IMG/VR virus record: IMGVR_UViG_3300042527_000442
Span: 1-43,552 of that record
Length of the DNA stretch: 43,552 bases
From: a virus
Direction: 5' to 3' (one strand)
How positions within the stretch are numbered: the first letter of the stretch is position 1; the number at the start of each line of letters is the position of its first letter. This document shows positions 702 to 9,384 of this stretch, in pieces. Position numbers and translations under genes: made by a program. The notes beneath the pieces are model-generated. The model worked only from the letters and a program-made list of their open reading frames with translations. It did no database searches and had not been told where the DNA came from.

Positions 702-2801
702 TCAAGTTCCGAGCTTCTTGAGCGTGATGATCTTCTTGCCGCCCGGCCCGCTGGGGAGAGACGCCTTCTTGCGCTGCCGCCCGCCCGCCTCCGTCGCAAT
801 CGGGTGGACGCCCGCAATCGACGCCGCGACCGCAGAGCCGACGAGGCAGTCGAGCCAGTGGTTGTCACGGCCCGCCATCTTCCACTCATCGACCACCCGG
901 CCACGGGCCTCGGTCCTCACCGGGTATTCGCTCGTCAGGTGCTCGAATAGGAGGTCGTGCTGCCCGGCGTGGAACGCGATCGCCTCGGGGTCGCCCATCT
1001 GCAACCGCAGGCGAGCCGCGACGAAGGTCTTGTAGAAGTTCGTGTCGTACAGGCATGACCGCTGCCCCTCGGAAATCTGCCCGACCTTCCAGTTGAGCCC
1101 GATGCGGTCGCCTCGGCTTTTCTTCTCGCCGATGGGCTGGCTCGACGCGCCGATGCCTTTGCCGTGGCTCGGCAGGATCGCCCCCGCAAACGCTGACCGC
1201 CGGCAGAATGTTCGGATCGTCCCGGTGCTCTGCCCCCAGTTGGCGTCGATGAGCATCTGCGTGATTCGCATCGCCGCCCCGTCCTCGCGTTTCCAGTCGC
1301 GGCCCATGAGCATTTGCGCGACCGACTCCAGACCGGCATGTAGCGATGCCTCGAAGCCAGCCCCCTTCGCCGCCTGGGAGAGCGTCCGCTTCGCGTGCTT
1401 GGCTTCAAAGAACGACGACGCCTGGTCAGGGAAGGTGCCGTAGGCCACCACATGCCCGCCGAACGACTGATTCCACGAGGCGACGAGCCAGAAGAGGAGC
1501 CGCTCCTGCACGTCGACAAACGCCGTTAGCGTCTGGTGGTCGAGCGGGATTTTCCCGCGCTCCAATGTCGTGGCCCGCAGGGCGAGGCTCCGCTTGTCGA
1601 GCTTGTCGCTCGCAATGTCGTCGGCGATCGGCGTGTTTTGGTACTCAGCCAAAAACGCCGACTCGCCACGGTCGATCCGCAGATTCCATGCGTGCTGGAT
1701 AGCGGAGAGCTCGTCTTCGTTCTTTCGCTCGGGCCACGCCACGCGAGCGCCGGCGTCCATCGCCGTTTGGTTCTGCCGGTAGTGGTCGTCTGCCGCCCCG
1801 GTGCCGGTCCCGTTCCGCTGGCCCTCGCGCCGCAACTCTGCGTACTGGCTCCAGAGATCCTCTGCGGTCGGCCACTCGTAGACGAGCTTCGTCCGCTCGC
1901 CCTGCCACGACGGATGCTTCGCCCGGTCGAGTAGTCGGTCGGCCAGGTCGTCGGGGCGGATGACCGTGATCGTGGCGAGACCGCTGATCTTCGCCCCCGG
2001 CCCGGCGAGGCCAAGGATCGCACCGGAGAGGATCCGCTCGCGCGTGGCGCACTGCGACGGCGACCCGGCTGACTCGTCGGTCTGCGGATCGTCGATCAGC
2101 ACCAGAGACGGGCGGACGGTCTTCCCATCGGCCCGAATGTGCTGGGCTCCTCGGATGCGGCCCGTGATGCCAGCGACACGCACCGCAGCCCCAGCGGACG
2201 ACGCGCCGGGGATCCAGGCCAGCGTGATCTGGTCGGCGGTCCATTCCAGTTGCGTCGGGTTGCCCTCGTAGGTCTGCCCCTTCGCCCGCTGGCTGATTCG
2301 CTCCAGAGCCCGAATCGGGCAGCAGGCTGCCGGGAAATCCTCCAAGAGCAGGTCGTTGGTTTCGAGATGCACCTTGATCACGTCGAGCATCTGGCACGCG
2401 ATCGCCTGGTCAGCACCCACGAGCATCACAAACGGGCGATGCCCGCAGAGAACCGACCACAGGCAGGCCCAGATACACAGGGTCGACTTGCCAGACCCAC
2501 GCGGCATCGCGAACGCGAAGAGCTCGCCACGGAGAACCGCCCCCTCGATCTTGCTGATAGCCGTCAGATGATCCGCAGACCACGCCAGCGGGAACGACTC
2601 TGCGCCGTAGGTCTCGCAGAATGAGCGGAAGTTTCGCTCGCAGGCCGCGCGCCGCTTGGCGTCCACGACCGGCGGGATCTCGCCAATGTCGCGGGCAGTC
2701 GACGTGATCGCCCGCGAACGCTTGCCCGCGTCTGCCTTCTGCTTGTCGTAACGCTGGCGGGCCTTGCTGTCGCGTTGGTTTTGGGTAGACGTGCGTTTCA
2801 T
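702..2801 (-). CDS. terL: Terminase large subunit, lambda GpA-type
   Basis: The 699-residue ATP-driven packaging motor and nuclease, which cuts concatemeric DNA and pumps it into the prohead through the portal. The N-terminal ATPase has a Walker A motif M-P-R-G-S-G-K-S-T at residues 99-107 and a Walker B-like V-L-I-D-D-P-Q at about 234-240. The C-terminal RNase H-like nuclease has candidate metal ligands at D430 (A-F-V-D-V-Q), D519 (L-I-D-A-N-W) and D651 (N-H-W-L-D), the last matching the conserved N/D-H-x-x-D of GpA-family terminases. No small subunit is recognisable next to it. The ATG is preceded by a small hairpin (GGG-TTTTT-CCC) rather than a Shine-Dalgarno sequence. A 337-base non-coding region lies upstream. 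Confidence 0.93.
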   Translation of the reverse strand: MKRTSTQNQRDSKARQRYDKQKADAGKRSRAITSTARDIGEIPPVVDAKRRAACERNFRSFCETYGAESFPLAWSADHLTAISKIEGAVLRGELFAFAMPRGSGKSTLCIWACLWSVLCGHRPFVMLVGADQAIACQMLDVIKVHLETNDLLLEDFPAACCPIRALERISQRAKGQTYEGNPTQLEWTADQITLAWIPGASSAGAAVRVAGITGRIRGAQHIRADGKTVRPSLVLIDDPQTDESAGSPSQCATRERILSGAILGLAGPGAKISGLATITVIRPDDLADRLLDRAKHPSWQGERTKLVYEWPTAEDLWSQYAELRREGQRNGTGTGAADDHYRQNQTAMDAGARVAWPERKNEDELSAIQHAWNLRIDRGESAFLAEYQNTPIADDIASDKLDKRSLALRATTLERGKIPLDHQTLTAFVDVQERLLFWLVASWNQSFGGHVVAYGTFPDQASSFFEAKHAKRTLSQAAKGAGFEASLHAGLESVAQMLMGRDWKREDGAAMRITQMLIDANWGQSTGTIRTFCRRSAFAGAILPSHGKGIGASSQPIGEKKSRGDRIGLNWKVGQISEGQRSCLYDTNFYKTFVAARLRLQMGDPEAIAFHAGQHDLLFEHLTSEYPVRTEARGRVVDEWKMAGRDNHWLDCLVGSAVAASIAGVHPIATEAGGRQRKKASLPSGPGGKKIITLKKLGT

Positions 2802-3138
2802 GCGGGAAAAACCCGTCGATTCAGCCGCAGCGTGCGGAAAAGGCTTGTTTTCTAGGGCGACTGAAAAGCCGACCCGCCAAAGTGGTCAAAAACAGTGTGA
2901 AAATAGGGTGGCTCGCCGTGGAGGCTTCCCTGCATTCTTGCCGGGAGAACCTATACCCCACCCCCCCTGTCGGGGGTAGTGTAGCATTTTGCAAAAAACG
3001 CTGTTTTTCCCGTGTTTTTCGCATGTTTTCGGTGTTTTTGTGCGTTTTCCTCGGGAAATACGCATGTTTTTCGTTGCGTTCGCTTTTGCCTATTTTCGTG
3101 GGCTTTTTCGCATATCGCATGCGTTTCGCCCTTGTTTT
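2802..3138. other. Non-coding region with phased A-tracts and a 15-bp direct repeat
   Basis: The longest gene-free stretch in the window, between rusA and terL. Its right half is full of T-runs on the plus strand. Five of them are centred near 3006, 3017, 3027, 3037 and 3046, about one helical turn apart, and more follow near 3069, 3085, 3094, 3106, 3125 and 3136. This pattern predicts intrinsic curvature. The 15-base sequence CTTGTTTTCTAGGGC occurs at both edges (2844-2858 and 3131-3145), the second copy containing the rusA stop codon. A C-run hairpin lies at about 2962-2976. Possible roles are a packaging site, a replication origin or a late promoter region. Short lysine-rich frames here look like by-products of the A-tracts. 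Confidence 0.6.
2844..2858. repeat. 15-bp direct repeat, left copy
   Basis: CTTGTTTTCTAGGGC, identical to 3131-3145. The two copies bracket the non-coding, A-tract-rich region between rusA and terL. They could be recombination junctions or protein-binding sites. Confidence 0.6.
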
Positions 3139-3145
3139 CTAGGGC
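3131..3145. repeat. 15-bp direct repeat, right copy (contains the rusA stop)
   Basis: Identical to 2844-2858. On the minus strand it includes the TAG stop codon of the RusA gene, so duplication of the 3' end of that gene is one possible origin. Confidence 0.6.
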
Positions 3146-3546
3146 TTTCCGCACTTCACGCTCACGATTGTCAGCGAATCGTCTCCAAATGCTTTCTCGA
3201 CAGTCAACCGCTTCACGTTCGTGTCATCGCCCATGACCTCTTGCAACGAATCGAGCACGGCTTTTGCAATGTTGTCTACGTCTGGCCGTGGCAGCCTTGG
3301 TGCTGTTGACTTCACGCCCTTCTTCGTCAGATGCGATTTCGGACGCTTGAACGTCGCCTCAATGAAGACCTCCACGGGTCCGTGCTGTGGCGTTAGGCCC
3401 GCTCTCATCGCCTCCAGTGCGATCTGCTTGCGGTAGGCGTGAACTGGGTGCTTCGCTGGCACATAGGCACGGGCGAACCCGGCCCGAGTCGAGACGCGCG
3501 GCCTCGGCTGCGGGACGGGCTCGCCCTGTACGACAAACGTGATCAC
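3139..3546 (-). CDS. rusA: RusA-family Holliday junction resolvase
   Basis: A 135-residue endonuclease that would resolve four-way junctions in replicating or recombining phage DNA before packaging. The start region I-T-F-V-V-Q-G-E-P-V-P-Q-P-R-P-R is the classic RusA beginning. The acidic active site is visible as R-P-D-V-D-N at residues 88-92 (D89 and D91), K95 and G-D-D-T-N-V (D107/D108), matching D70, D72, K76 and D91 of Escherichia coli RusA. I chose the GTG at 3544-3546 because it overlaps the stop of the upstream gene as GTGA and removes 29 non-conserved residues. It pairs functionally with the RecT-like annealing protein of the same leftward operon. It is the last gene before the curved non-coding region. 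Confidence 0.9.
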   Translation of the reverse strand: MITFVVQGEPVPQPRPRVSTRAGFARAYVPAKHPVHAYRKQIALEAMRAGLTPQHGPVEVFIEATFKRPKSHLTKKGVKSTAPRLPRPDVDNIAKAVLDSLQEVMGDDTNVKRLTVEKAFGDDSLTIVSVKCGKP

Positions 3547-3839
3547 TCGTAGCGGATCACCGCGAACCACGCGCGCTTCACGGGCGACCACGCAACGCCC
3601 TTCTCGACGATCCTGTAGCGTCCGTAGAAGCAACAGTTCCGCTCTGCCGCCTGTGGCGTCGGTCCCACACCGATACCCTCTCGTCGACCGCCAGAGCGTC
3701 CGCAGTGACGCAGGATGCCCGTGCGAGCCATCGTCTCTGCGTCTTGCTGGGCCGTCGTGATCGTCGTGGTGACGACGAACTGGTCAGCCATGCCAACGCT
3801 TCCGCAAATCATCGCAACCGCCAGGAAAAAACTTCTCAT
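3543..3839 (-). CDS. Secreted small Cys-containing protein of unknown function
   Basis: A 98-residue protein that begins with a signal peptide: M-R, a hydrophobic core to about residue 16 and a likely cleavage site after G-M-A (residues 16-18). The mature part has a C-G-R-S-G-G-R-R segment, a paired Cys (N-C-C-F-Y-G), and ends V-K-R-A-W-F-A-V-I-R-Y-E. I do not recognise an enzymatic family. The ATG has a strong AGGAGG eight bases upstream. Secretion in the middle of a replication operon is unusual; a cell-surface role such as superinfection exclusion is possible but speculative. Confidence 0.7.
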   Translation of the reverse strand: MRSFFLAVAMICGSVGMADQFVVTTTITTAQQDAETMARTGILRHCGRSGGRREGIGVGPTPQAAERNCCFYGRYRIVEKGVAWSPVKRAWFAVIRYE

Positions 3840-6730: not shown

Positions 6731-8731
6731 TTAGACGGCCACTTCCTTGCGGATCGCGTCAACGGTCATTGAACGCACGACAGAGCGGGCTCGCGACAGA
6801 TCGTCTGTCGTGAACGCTTCAAAATCAGCCATCCTTGCGATGCCGAGTTTGTGCAGAAGTATTCGGTCGGAGTCCTCGCTCGGCATGTTCATGTGCTTCG
6901 CGAACGACCGCATTTCTGCTTCTAGGTTCAACAGCATCTGCGACCGGCTTGCCGCGCGTTGCAGGACTTCGCTGTTGCCGTAGACGTTCATTTCCTTCGC
7001 AGTAGCGAGATACAGCCCAAGACGAACCTCGTCTCCCGATCTCCTTCGTTGCTCCAACACCCTTTTCCCCCATCCAATCCACTGCTCCGGCACCTGACAG
7101 CCCTCGGCTGCGCCTCCCTGCAAACACGCGTCGTCGATAAATGCCTCGACGACGCGAGGGTTCCCCTGCTGTAGCTGGCACGCATCCTGCGGAGGCAGAT
7201 TGGCGGCTGGCCTGTCGATTGTGCCTTTCCGAACCGCGTCCTCGATGGCCTGCGCAAACTCGACGTGAAACGAAGTTCGCGGCAACACGATCCGACCGTG
7301 CTCGTCGTCGCTGCCTCCGGTGGTCGTTCGCATGACCCTTCCGACAAGTTGTCTAAACAGCGACTCAGACTGAATACAGCGGAAAAGGCACAGGACCATT
7401 AGCCAGGGGATGTTTACCCCTTCAGCGATCATGTTGATCGCCGCTATCCACTGAGCCATAGAGTCGCCGCGAAAATGTCGTATCAAATCGCCAGCGTCCG
7501 GCTTGTCGCACGTTACGACGATCGGCTTTTGAGACGCACCGCCAGCTCGCATCCATGCATTTGCCGTTCGCTCGACAAGTTGAACTTCGTTGCAGTCTTT
7601 GTCGCGGCCTGCCTCGCACACGATCAAACCCTTGCCCATCGCAGTACGCGCGTTCTCGCGGATGGATCGCAAGTGCTCAATGCCATGCTGGTAGATCGGC
7701 GACCACAACTCTCGGTCCGGCATCAGAAGCTTCCGCGCAACGCTAGACTGAAGGTCGCGAGGCACTTTCTCTAAACTGTCGGCAACCCTTTCAATCGTTT
7801 TGCCGTCTCGCCGCTCAAACCAAATGATCGGCGACCCTGGCTGGGCATCAACAAAGCGAAAAGAGACGGGCCGGCAAATGCGGTCGCGAATCCCCTCTCG
7901 CATGGTGTGGGAAACGTCGGCAATCGGAATTCCGAGCGTCCCATAAGGAACAATCGCGATCTTTTGCTCGTCCTCGCGAAAAGGCGTTCCGCTCAGCACG
8001 ACAGATAGTTCAGCCTCTTCCTCTAGGCTCGCGACGGCCCCCCAGCTTGCGACGACGGACGTGTGGTGGATTTCGTCGAAGATAAAACAGCACGACCAGT
8101 TTTTCTTTCGCCAGTGCTGGATCGCGCGCAAGACGTTCTTGGCGTTTCTCCCAGTCAATGCCGCGTAGGTCACGATGATGTAGTCGTCGGACGGCGGCTC
8201 CAAGACCCTGCTGGCGTTAGGAAGCAACTGCCTTGAAATCGTCGCGCCAGGATCAAACGCCCGAATCTCGTCGGCGTAGCCGTCGCCGATGTTGAGTTTC
8301 GGCACGACAATGATTGTCGTGTCAGTGTTGCGCTTGCGTCGGACGAGACTCGCGATAACGATTGAAAACAACGTCTTGCCAGCGGCCATGACGACCTCTG
8401 CAAAAACGACTTTGGATCCGTCGCGTATTTTTTTGGCTACGGTAAAAAGCCCGCGAATCTGCCACTTGTAACGCGGATCACACCGACCCCTAAACTCCTT
8501 GATTTGGGGCCACAACTGCTGGTCGTGCCGGACGCTGTGACAGTCGCCGCACACGGCAACCTCGTTTGTTTTGTCCGTCTGACCTCCACCGGCGTGCTCA
8601 ATGACGTGGTGGCCAAAAGCTTGATTAACCGCCGTTCCGATTTCGCAGCCGCAATCGTGACACAAGCCGTCTTGTCGCTGAACAATCTCGATCAACTCCG
8701 ACTGAGAGAGTTGCCGCTTTGATTCCTTCAT
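6731..8731 (-). CDS. HNH nuclease fused to a superfamily 2 helicase
   Basis: A 666-residue protein. The N terminus holds an HNH domain with zinc-knuckle cysteines (C24-x-x-C27 and C61-x-x-C64), a core G-H-H-V-I-E-H (residues 40-46) and H65/H69. The remainder is an SF2 helicase/translocase of the type III restriction/UvsW-like group: Walker A A-A-G-K-T at 116-120, Walker B D-E-I-H-H at 219-223, motif III S-G-T-P-F at 247-251, motif V I-A-E-G-V-N-I-P at about 435-442 and motif VI Q-L-V-G-R-V-M-R at 461-468. The ATG at 8729-8731 overlaps the upstream stop as ATGA. It may unwind origin or recombination intermediates, or cut incoming DNA. The fusion order HNH-helicase is unusual. Confidence 0.88.
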   Translation of the reverse strand: MKESKRQLSQSELIEIVQRQDGLCHDCGCEIGTAVNQAFGHHVIEHAGGGQTDKTNEVAVCGDCHSVRHDQQLWPQIKEFRGRCDPRYKWQIRGLFTVAKKIRDGSKVVFAEVVMAAGKTLFSIVIASLVRRKRNTDTTIIVVPKLNIGDGYADEIRAFDPGATISRQLLPNASRVLEPPSDDYIIVTYAALTGRNAKNVLRAIQHWRKKNWSCCFIFDEIHHTSVVASWGAVASLEEEAELSVVLSGTPFREDEQKIAIVPYGTLGIPIADVSHTMREGIRDRICRPVSFRFVDAQPGSPIIWFERRDGKTIERVADSLEKVPRDLQSSVARKLLMPDRELWSPIYQHGIEHLRSIRENARTAMGKGLIVCEAGRDKDCNEVQLVERTANAWMRAGGASQKPIVVTCDKPDAGDLIRHFRGDSMAQWIAAINMIAEGVNIPWLMVLCLFRCIQSESLFRQLVGRVMRTTTGGSDDEHGRIVLPRTSFHVEFAQAIEDAVRKGTIDRPAANLPPQDACQLQQGNPRVVEAFIDDACLQGGAAEGCQVPEQWIGWGKRVLEQRRRSGDEVRLGLYLATAKEMNVYGNSEVLQRAASRSQMLLNLEAEMRSFAKHMNMPSEDSDRILLHKLGIARMADFEAFTTDDLSRARSVVRSMTVDAIRKEVAV

Positions 8732-9384
8732 GCGTTCACCAATCCTTTCTCGATTTTGCCAAGCCCGGCTGACCTCACCATCTCGCGAAATGCCTTGCGC
8801 TGCGCCTTCGTCATGCGGTTCCACGCCTGCCTAGCCTCACGCACCGGATCGTGCCGATCAGGCACGATGCCAGCAGCGCGAGCAGCAGCGTTTACGGTTC
8901 TGTGCTCGCCGTTCTGGTAGGCGGCCCAGACCTTCGGGAAGTCACGCTGAAGGCGGTCGGCTAGGCCGGCGACGCTTGACGTGTTTGGCTTGCTGCCAAC
9001 CACAACATCGGCGCCTTTTTTGTGCTTAACCGCCTCCCGTTCGCGAGCTGCGTCCGACTTGCTCCGGCCAACGCTGCCACCAAGAAACTTGATCGCCGGC
9101 CTGTTTCGGTCGAACTGGATCAACCGCGAAACGATTGCGTCCACGCTGGCCGCCCCGTCGTCGGTGTTGAAGCCCAAGCCAGGCGGGTTCCTGTAGGCCG
9201 CGTACTCGCGGAATGTCTTGAACTTGCTGCCGTCCGCGCGCGTCGCCTTTTTCCACCCACCTGGACCTTCGTAGTCGTGAAGCTGCTCGATCGCGCTAGC
9301 CAACTCCTTGGCAGACACAATTCCGCTTTGAGCCATCCGAAACGCACGCTCGCGAAGAGCGTCAACATCAACCTTTGTTGCCAT
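8728..9384 (-). CDS. Early-operon protein, possibly DNA-binding, unknown family
   Basis: A 218-residue basic protein. Residues 1-40 are helical. A central W-K-K-A-T...F-K-T-F-R-E-Y-A-A-Y segment resembles the surroundings of ParB/RepA-like helices, and the C-terminal half contains N-A-A-A-R-A-A-G-I-V-P-D-R-H, a plausible helix-turn-helix, before a Lys/Arg-rich end. The ATG at 9382-9384 has AAAGGGA about ten bases upstream; a TTG six codons earlier is less likely. It ends by overlapping the helicase start (ATGA), so its product is co-made with the helicase. A replication or partition accessory role is inference only. Confidence 0.7.
   Translation of the reverse strand: MATKVDVDALRERAFRMAQSGIVSAKELASAIEQLHDYEGPGGWKKATRADGSKFKTFREYAAYRNPPGLGFNTDDGAASVDAIVSRLIQFDRNRPAIKFLGGSVGRSKSDAAREREAVKHKKGADVVVGSKPNTSSVAGLADRLQRDFPKVWAAYQNGEHRTVNAAARAAGIVPDRHDPVREARQAWNRMTKAQRKAFREMVRSAGLGKIEKGLVNA

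Follow-up and report, generated by a model that had tools for sequence, protein, structure and literature searches.

The gap between terL and rusA

The window, by which we mean the whole analysed stretch of 43,552 nucleotides (IMGVR_UViG_3300042527_000442, positions 1-43,552), contains a gap that extends from the start of terL at 2801 to the stop of rusA at 3139, and both genes are located on the minus strand. The product of terL is a large terminase of the gpA family (Pfam GpA_nuclease, PF20454, 1.7e-26; PHROG 38/15, terminase large subunit), as is characteristic of a lambda-type cos. A profile search with TerL in bacterial and archaeal genomes led to 42 relatives, all of which (42/42) were named as members of Planctomycetota, and this points to a planctomycete as the very likely host of the virus. 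The matches of TerL to isolated phages have an identity of only about 28%, and no DNA-level match of the region was found among known or isolated phages. Phages of Planctomycetes were also looked up in a full-text literature search of partial coverage, and none of the phrases used was found in a paper. The relatives used for the comparisons, among them IMG/VR contigs, are labelled L### (e.g., L026). Elsewhere in the window (6731-8824, minus strand), one protein combines an HNH nuclease domain and a ResIII-type helicase domain. The features of the locus are the following:

702-2801, minus strand: terL, 699 aa, lambda gpA-type large terminase, 5' end toward the cos region
2802-2909, minus strand: predicted left-end leader, the first bases of the left virion end after the 13-nt stagger, from exact contig starts in relatives
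2844-2858, minus strand: 15-bp motif GCCCTAGAAAACAAG, copy 1, on the terL side of cos
2910-2922, minus strand: putative cosN, 13-nt stagger TCCACGGCGAGCC in the context GCC^TCCACGGCGAGCC^ACCC, from contig ends of relatives
2940-2951, minus strand: extended box GGTTCTCCCGGC around the cosQ-like box
2946-2952, minus strand: cosQ-like box AGGTTCT, -30 to -24 from the cut, from a PWM of 37 distinct relatives and an alignment to the lambda ends
2963-2976, no strand: short G+C hairpin CCCCC-TGTC-GGGGG, read from the sequence; the poly-C/G tract varies in relatives
2980-2995, minus strand: motif TTTGCAAAATGCTACA, dyad-like and resembling an operator or iteron; relatives have GTTGCAAAATGCAAC
2987-3108, no strand: helically phased A/T-tract array with the highest predicted curvature of the window
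3131-3145, minus strand: 15-bp motif GCCCTAGAAAACAAG, copy 2, which overlaps the rusA stop; the array begins here
3139-3633, minus strand: rusA, Holliday-junction resolvase (Pfam RusA 6.1e-21), the final gene at the right end of the genome; its start codon is uncertain

The initial annotation had described five T-runs with a spacing close to the helical repeat of 10.5 bases, followed by further tracts, and had predicted a strong curvature of the DNA. The phased T-runs were confirmed, and the curvature is supported by prediction. T-runs of 4-5 residues are centred at 3006.0, 3017.0, 3027.5, 3037.0, and 3046.5, i.e., with spacings of 11, 10.5, 9.5, and 9.5, and additional tracts are centred at 2988.5, 2995.5, 3069, 3085.5, 3094.5, and 3106. 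The in-phase vector sum of 2991-3110 is the highest among all 120-bp windows of the 43.5 kb. The phasing of 2990-3060, which is a plain property of the sequence, was not reached by any of 3000 dinucleotide shuffles (0/3000), and a test in which the tracts were fixed and the spacers were redistributed gave P = 0.003. Therefore, the region contains A/T-tracts in helix phase, the hallmark of intrinsically curved DNA. The curvature itself is a prediction of a wedge model, in which the ratio of contour to end-to-end length peaks within the window at 2971-3090 with a value of 1.52 (mean of the genome 1.04, sd 0.035), and it is supported by its conservation near cos in relatives. As a sanity control, the model separated A5N5 sequences in phase from those out of phase. 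A second, weaker bend is predicted on the terL side (2821-2940, ratio of 1.25).

It had also been noted that an identical 15-bp repeat is present at both ends of the gap, and exact copies of CTTGTTTTCTAGGGC are indeed found at 2844-2858 and at 3131-3145. The pair alone is weak evidence, because two matches to the related 15-mer (at most three mismatches) arose in 8 of 100 whole-window shuffles. In relatives, at least one copy of the motif core follows the last gene on the right-end side, often at a spacing of 41 bp. The view that the repeats bracket the region could not be maintained; they are neither termini nor boundaries, and instead represent two copies of the motif CCTAGAAAACAAG, which recurs in relatives. 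The 15-bp motif belongs to the array and is no terminal repeat. A function as a genome-wide stoperator was considered and rejected, as the window contains just two copies.

Contig ends and the position of the cut

A search of IMG/VR with TerL yielded many contigs that begin at a near-constant distance from terL, and these were mapped with the help of relatives whose contigs run across the site. It has been described that assemblers put cos ends at the limits of contigs (PMC5557969). Of the 37 mapped contigs, 26, which originate from 24 metagenomes, begin at one homologous base (the homologue of window position 2909), immediately behind TC-NNNN-NNGAGC-N; one contig begins 1 nt earlier, and two begin 13 nt earlier (homologue of 2922). 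The right ends were found independently, and all four (L114, L165, L169, and L171) end at GCC (homologue of 2923), exactly 13 nt before the common left-end base. One contig of 45,330 bp has both of its termini at the site, with exactly the 13 nt missing. A contig of 44,003 bp from a more distant clade has its right end 30 nt past the start of GGGTCCT, and its other end adjoins terL. In this contig (G028, L417/L418, 40680-43937, minus strand) TerL is split in frame right after Walker A (GSGK) by an insert of about 390 residues, which has an intein-like appearance.

Fixed staggered ends beside the terminase gene are thus observed in the relatives, and the position in the window, the contig of which spans the site, was transferred by homology. 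A site-spanning contig is what concatemers or circles would yield, and it was counted as a point against the preferred explanation. The contig ends make it nearly certain that a cos is located at 2910-2922 of the window. The suggestion that the gap contains a packaging site was therefore right with respect to its presence, and the contig ends of the relatives set its position to the base, but the cut lies outside of the A-tracts, about 70-190 bp away from the array. A pac site had been named as another option for the gap. Both genome ends are fixed, which supports a cos instead of a pac, and headful packaging with one fixed and one variable end was rejected on the same ground, e.g., by the 45,330-bp contig. 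Direct terminal repeats of the T7 type (>100 bp) were rejected as well, because the ends of that contig have no common repeat.

The left, terL-side contig ends outnumber the right ends by about 7 to 1, and this excess may result from assembly breaks in the poly-C/G stretch. With respect to the polarity of the overhang, the 13 nt are absent from 26 left ends and present in two; by the PhageTerm rule, applied to assemblies and not to reads, this suggests that the overhang of 13 nt may be a 3' overhang. Right behind the cut, the leader of the left end contains two T-tracts that are about 10-11.5 bp apart, and the second predicted bend is found in the leader at an I2-like position.

On the other side of the cut, all 37 distinct relatives have the 12-bp box GGTTCTnCCGGC, and its distance to the GCC that follows is always 14 bp. 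Positions -30 to -24 read exactly GGGTCCT in 11/37 relatives, and the AGGTTCT of the window agrees with this heptamer at 5/7 positions. The cos motif was also looked for at distant planctomycete terL loci and was not found there. Visual inspection of seven distant planctomycete relatives (L255, L257, L258, L259, L261, L274, and L284) suggests that terL is immediately preceded by a small HTH-like ORF and that the N-terminus of TerL has a similar domain. This candidate TerS is absent from the clade of the window.

The array in relatives and its possible roles

The predicted curvature is significantly higher than that of dinucleotide shuffles in 32 of 38 distinct relatives, which share ancestry, so that this is not a count of independent events. 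In most relatives with at least four tracts these are spaced by 10-11 bp or multiples thereof. The same place is occupied by the tract AAAAA in one clade and by TTTTT in another, with the bend being kept, and in L134 and L166 the sequence of the array is non-homologous, phased, and has the highest curvature value. In an alignment of 14 sequences, many columns of the array do not vary, whereas its flanks have been exchanged. The array core is present in 17 IMG/VR stretches, and the inspected ones are located beside this cos or at the end of a contig. Where other genes part cos from terL (L034, L128, and L084), the array stays with cos. A DNA methyltransferase-like gene is present between cos and terL in L031-L035 and L043, in some of which the array is kept with cos. 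As a property, the array is better conserved than as a sequence. Six of the 38 relatives (L060, L080, L088, L094, L095, and L114) have no significant curvature despite the same cos, and thus the bend is no strict requirement.

The last gene before cos encodes a nuclease in the relatives examined, and this cos-adjacent slot has been repeatedly refilled by unrelated families. The comparison of 3139-3633 of the window with the slots of L132, L150, L080, L088, L094, and L095 revealed RusA, PDDEXK_15, PDDEXK_5, HNH (with or without HTH), and a T5orf172/GIY-YIG type. The array follows RusA, PDDEXK_15, and PDDEXK_5 alike and is absent with slot genes of the HNH or GIY-YIG type (31/33 versus 0/4, Fisher P 0.0002 without a correction for relatedness). 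Upstream of cos, L088, L093, and L094 contain tandem 16-bp dyads (GTTGCAAAATGCAAC / GACGCAAAACGATAC / GTGCCAAAATGGCAC), mostly without a curved array. These dyads are possibly an alternative protein-binding module.

The explanation that we favour, with a probability of about 0.65, is that a planctomycete tailed phage has its cos region in this gap, and that the A-tract bend aids packaging there. The gpA-type terminase would assemble at cos and make two nicks (stagger 2910-2922), and the cut would generate the two termini of the linear DNA in the virion, the left end at terL and the right end just past rusA. The cosQ-like box, 30 nt before the cut, would mark the end that arrives. On the cosQ side, the phased bend would most likely aid the assembly of the terminase or a partner at cos, or the stop at cos. 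In this role, which is inferred, the bend would resemble the bent DNA at the cos of lambda and at the pac of SPP1, and the odds that the bend serves packaging are about even.

Alternatively, the array might be a promoter or UP element of a terL operon, which is read across the joined cos ends, and its proximity to cos would then be incidental. Curved A-rich DNA can activate promoters, rusA and terL are encoded on one strand, and the motif TTGCAAAATGCTACAC is conserved beside the array. However, a search for sigma-70-type promoters, which does not cover planctomycete promoters, found none, a -10-like TACACT varies among relatives (L030/L091 have AACACC), and the array keeps with cos when genes part cos and terL. 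Overall, we regard a promoter as unlikely. A somewhat lower probability is assigned to a replication origin, which had been proposed before and would consist of the array and the dyads, where the replication module ends. The neighbouring module is indeed replicative (rusA, sliding clamp, primosomal protein, and helicase), and the 16-bp dyads are iterated in L088, L093, and L094. However, no evidence for an origin in the window was found; the cumulative GC skew, which is uninformative, has no turning point here, the dyad is single-copy in the window, and many relatives are devoid of the dyad or the tracts.

It is still less probable that the array is a functionless spacer after the last gene, mobile or derived from repeats of about 41-bp units, with the curvature as a by-product of the repeats. 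The region is mosaic, the copy number of the units is variable, copies occur at a spacing of 41 bp, and six relatives have no significant curvature, all of which would be expected for such a spacer. It would not be expected that the non-homologous sequence of L134/L166 is also phased, that many columns do not vary in 14 sequences with exchanged flanks, and that the inspected matches of the array core either adjoin this cos or are located at the end of a contig.

The contig breaks themselves could be artefacts of assembly, caused by strain mosaicism or the poly-G hairpin, and would then not represent physical ends. Strong mosaicism and long runs of C/G are in fact present on the upstream side. 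However, this is very improbable, because one exact break base is found over 24 metagenomes, and the breaks are not at points of divergence: L026 and L030 differ upstream and share the conserved stretch at which L028 and L029 begin. In addition, the independent right ends coincide exactly, and none of 80 contigs with lambda's own cos (0/80) begins or ends at cos. The record names of the latter suggest isolate genomes, and thus prophages, so that they are a negative control for breakage only. There is hardly any reason to assume a small protein from the lysine-rich frames or an RNA formed by the hairpins, because, although an ORF (2821-3120, minus strand) is open over 99 codons, it has no family match, no frame has a clear excess of synonymous changes (8 seen versus 4.9 expected in the best case), relatives contain a 1-nt indel and stops, and neither a covarying pair nor an Rfam family at the gathering score was found. 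A conserved coding signal in these frames had been named as an argument against a packaging site, and the relatives reveal no clear selection of this kind.

A cos region thus remains the preferred reading, and the genome ends of an uncultured group of planctomycete phages could be fixed to the base from assemblies alone.

Comparison with lambda, SPP1, and HK97

Phage lambda has GGGTCCT, which we take to be its cosQ, also at -30, in the same register as 11/37 relatives. The cosQ of lambda is conserved and has a length of 7 bp (PMC4669245), and these 7 bp are required for the termination of packaging (PMC4669245, PMC9026076). The match of the whole 30-mer to lambda is not unique, as 24 of 17,946 lambda 30-mers are equally good. 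With this unexceptional similarity, a common descent of the cosQ-like box with that of lambda is plausible rather than proven. Lambda also shares the gpA-type TerL and the T-tracts right behind the cut. In contrast, its cosN has a stagger of 12 nt, compared to 13 nt here, and the common part is only the CGGCGA core; the overhang of lambda is a 5' overhang, whereas the contig ends are as expected for a 3' overhang. Lambda has a cosB with R sites and TerS between cos and terL. In the window this distance is 108 nt, in most clades it is only about 35-110 nt, and neither a TerS gene nor R-like repeats or a cosB were recognised among the genes scanned. Lambda requires a static intrinsic bend at I2, and its cosN is flanked by bent DNA (PMC4856287). 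However, the strong bend predicted here is found at cosQ and thus on the side opposite to the cosB of lambda, and the same wedge model gives no strong curvature for the ends of lambda itself. The 12-nt ends of lambda were not found here, and its cosB and TerS were not recognised, so that the site is not classified as a lambda-like cos proper; it works like one.

For SPP1 it has been reported that pacL is bent, that TerS wraps it, and that TerS recognises local DNA structure (PMC4856287). Intrinsically bent DNA that adjoins the cleavage site, as predicted here, is common to both systems, but SPP1 is a pac phage, while both ends are fixed here. The cos of HK97 has a 10-nt 3' overhang and an A-tract near the cut, and its cleavage is stimulated by the HNH nuclease gp74 (PMC11331095). 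The possible 3' overhang, the A-tract near the cut, and the HNH gene beside cos in some relatives resemble this arrangement; differences to HK97 are the gpA-type TerL and that TerS was not found. It is a tentative and rather doubtful idea that a lambda-type terminase acts here without recognisable TerS and cosB, which would instead rely on a swappable neighbouring nuclease and, at cosQ, on a long and helically phased bend of flexible sequence, and would generate 13-nt 3' overhangs. The arrangement of box and cut suggests that the cosQ-cosN geometry of lambda reaches far past the enteric phages.
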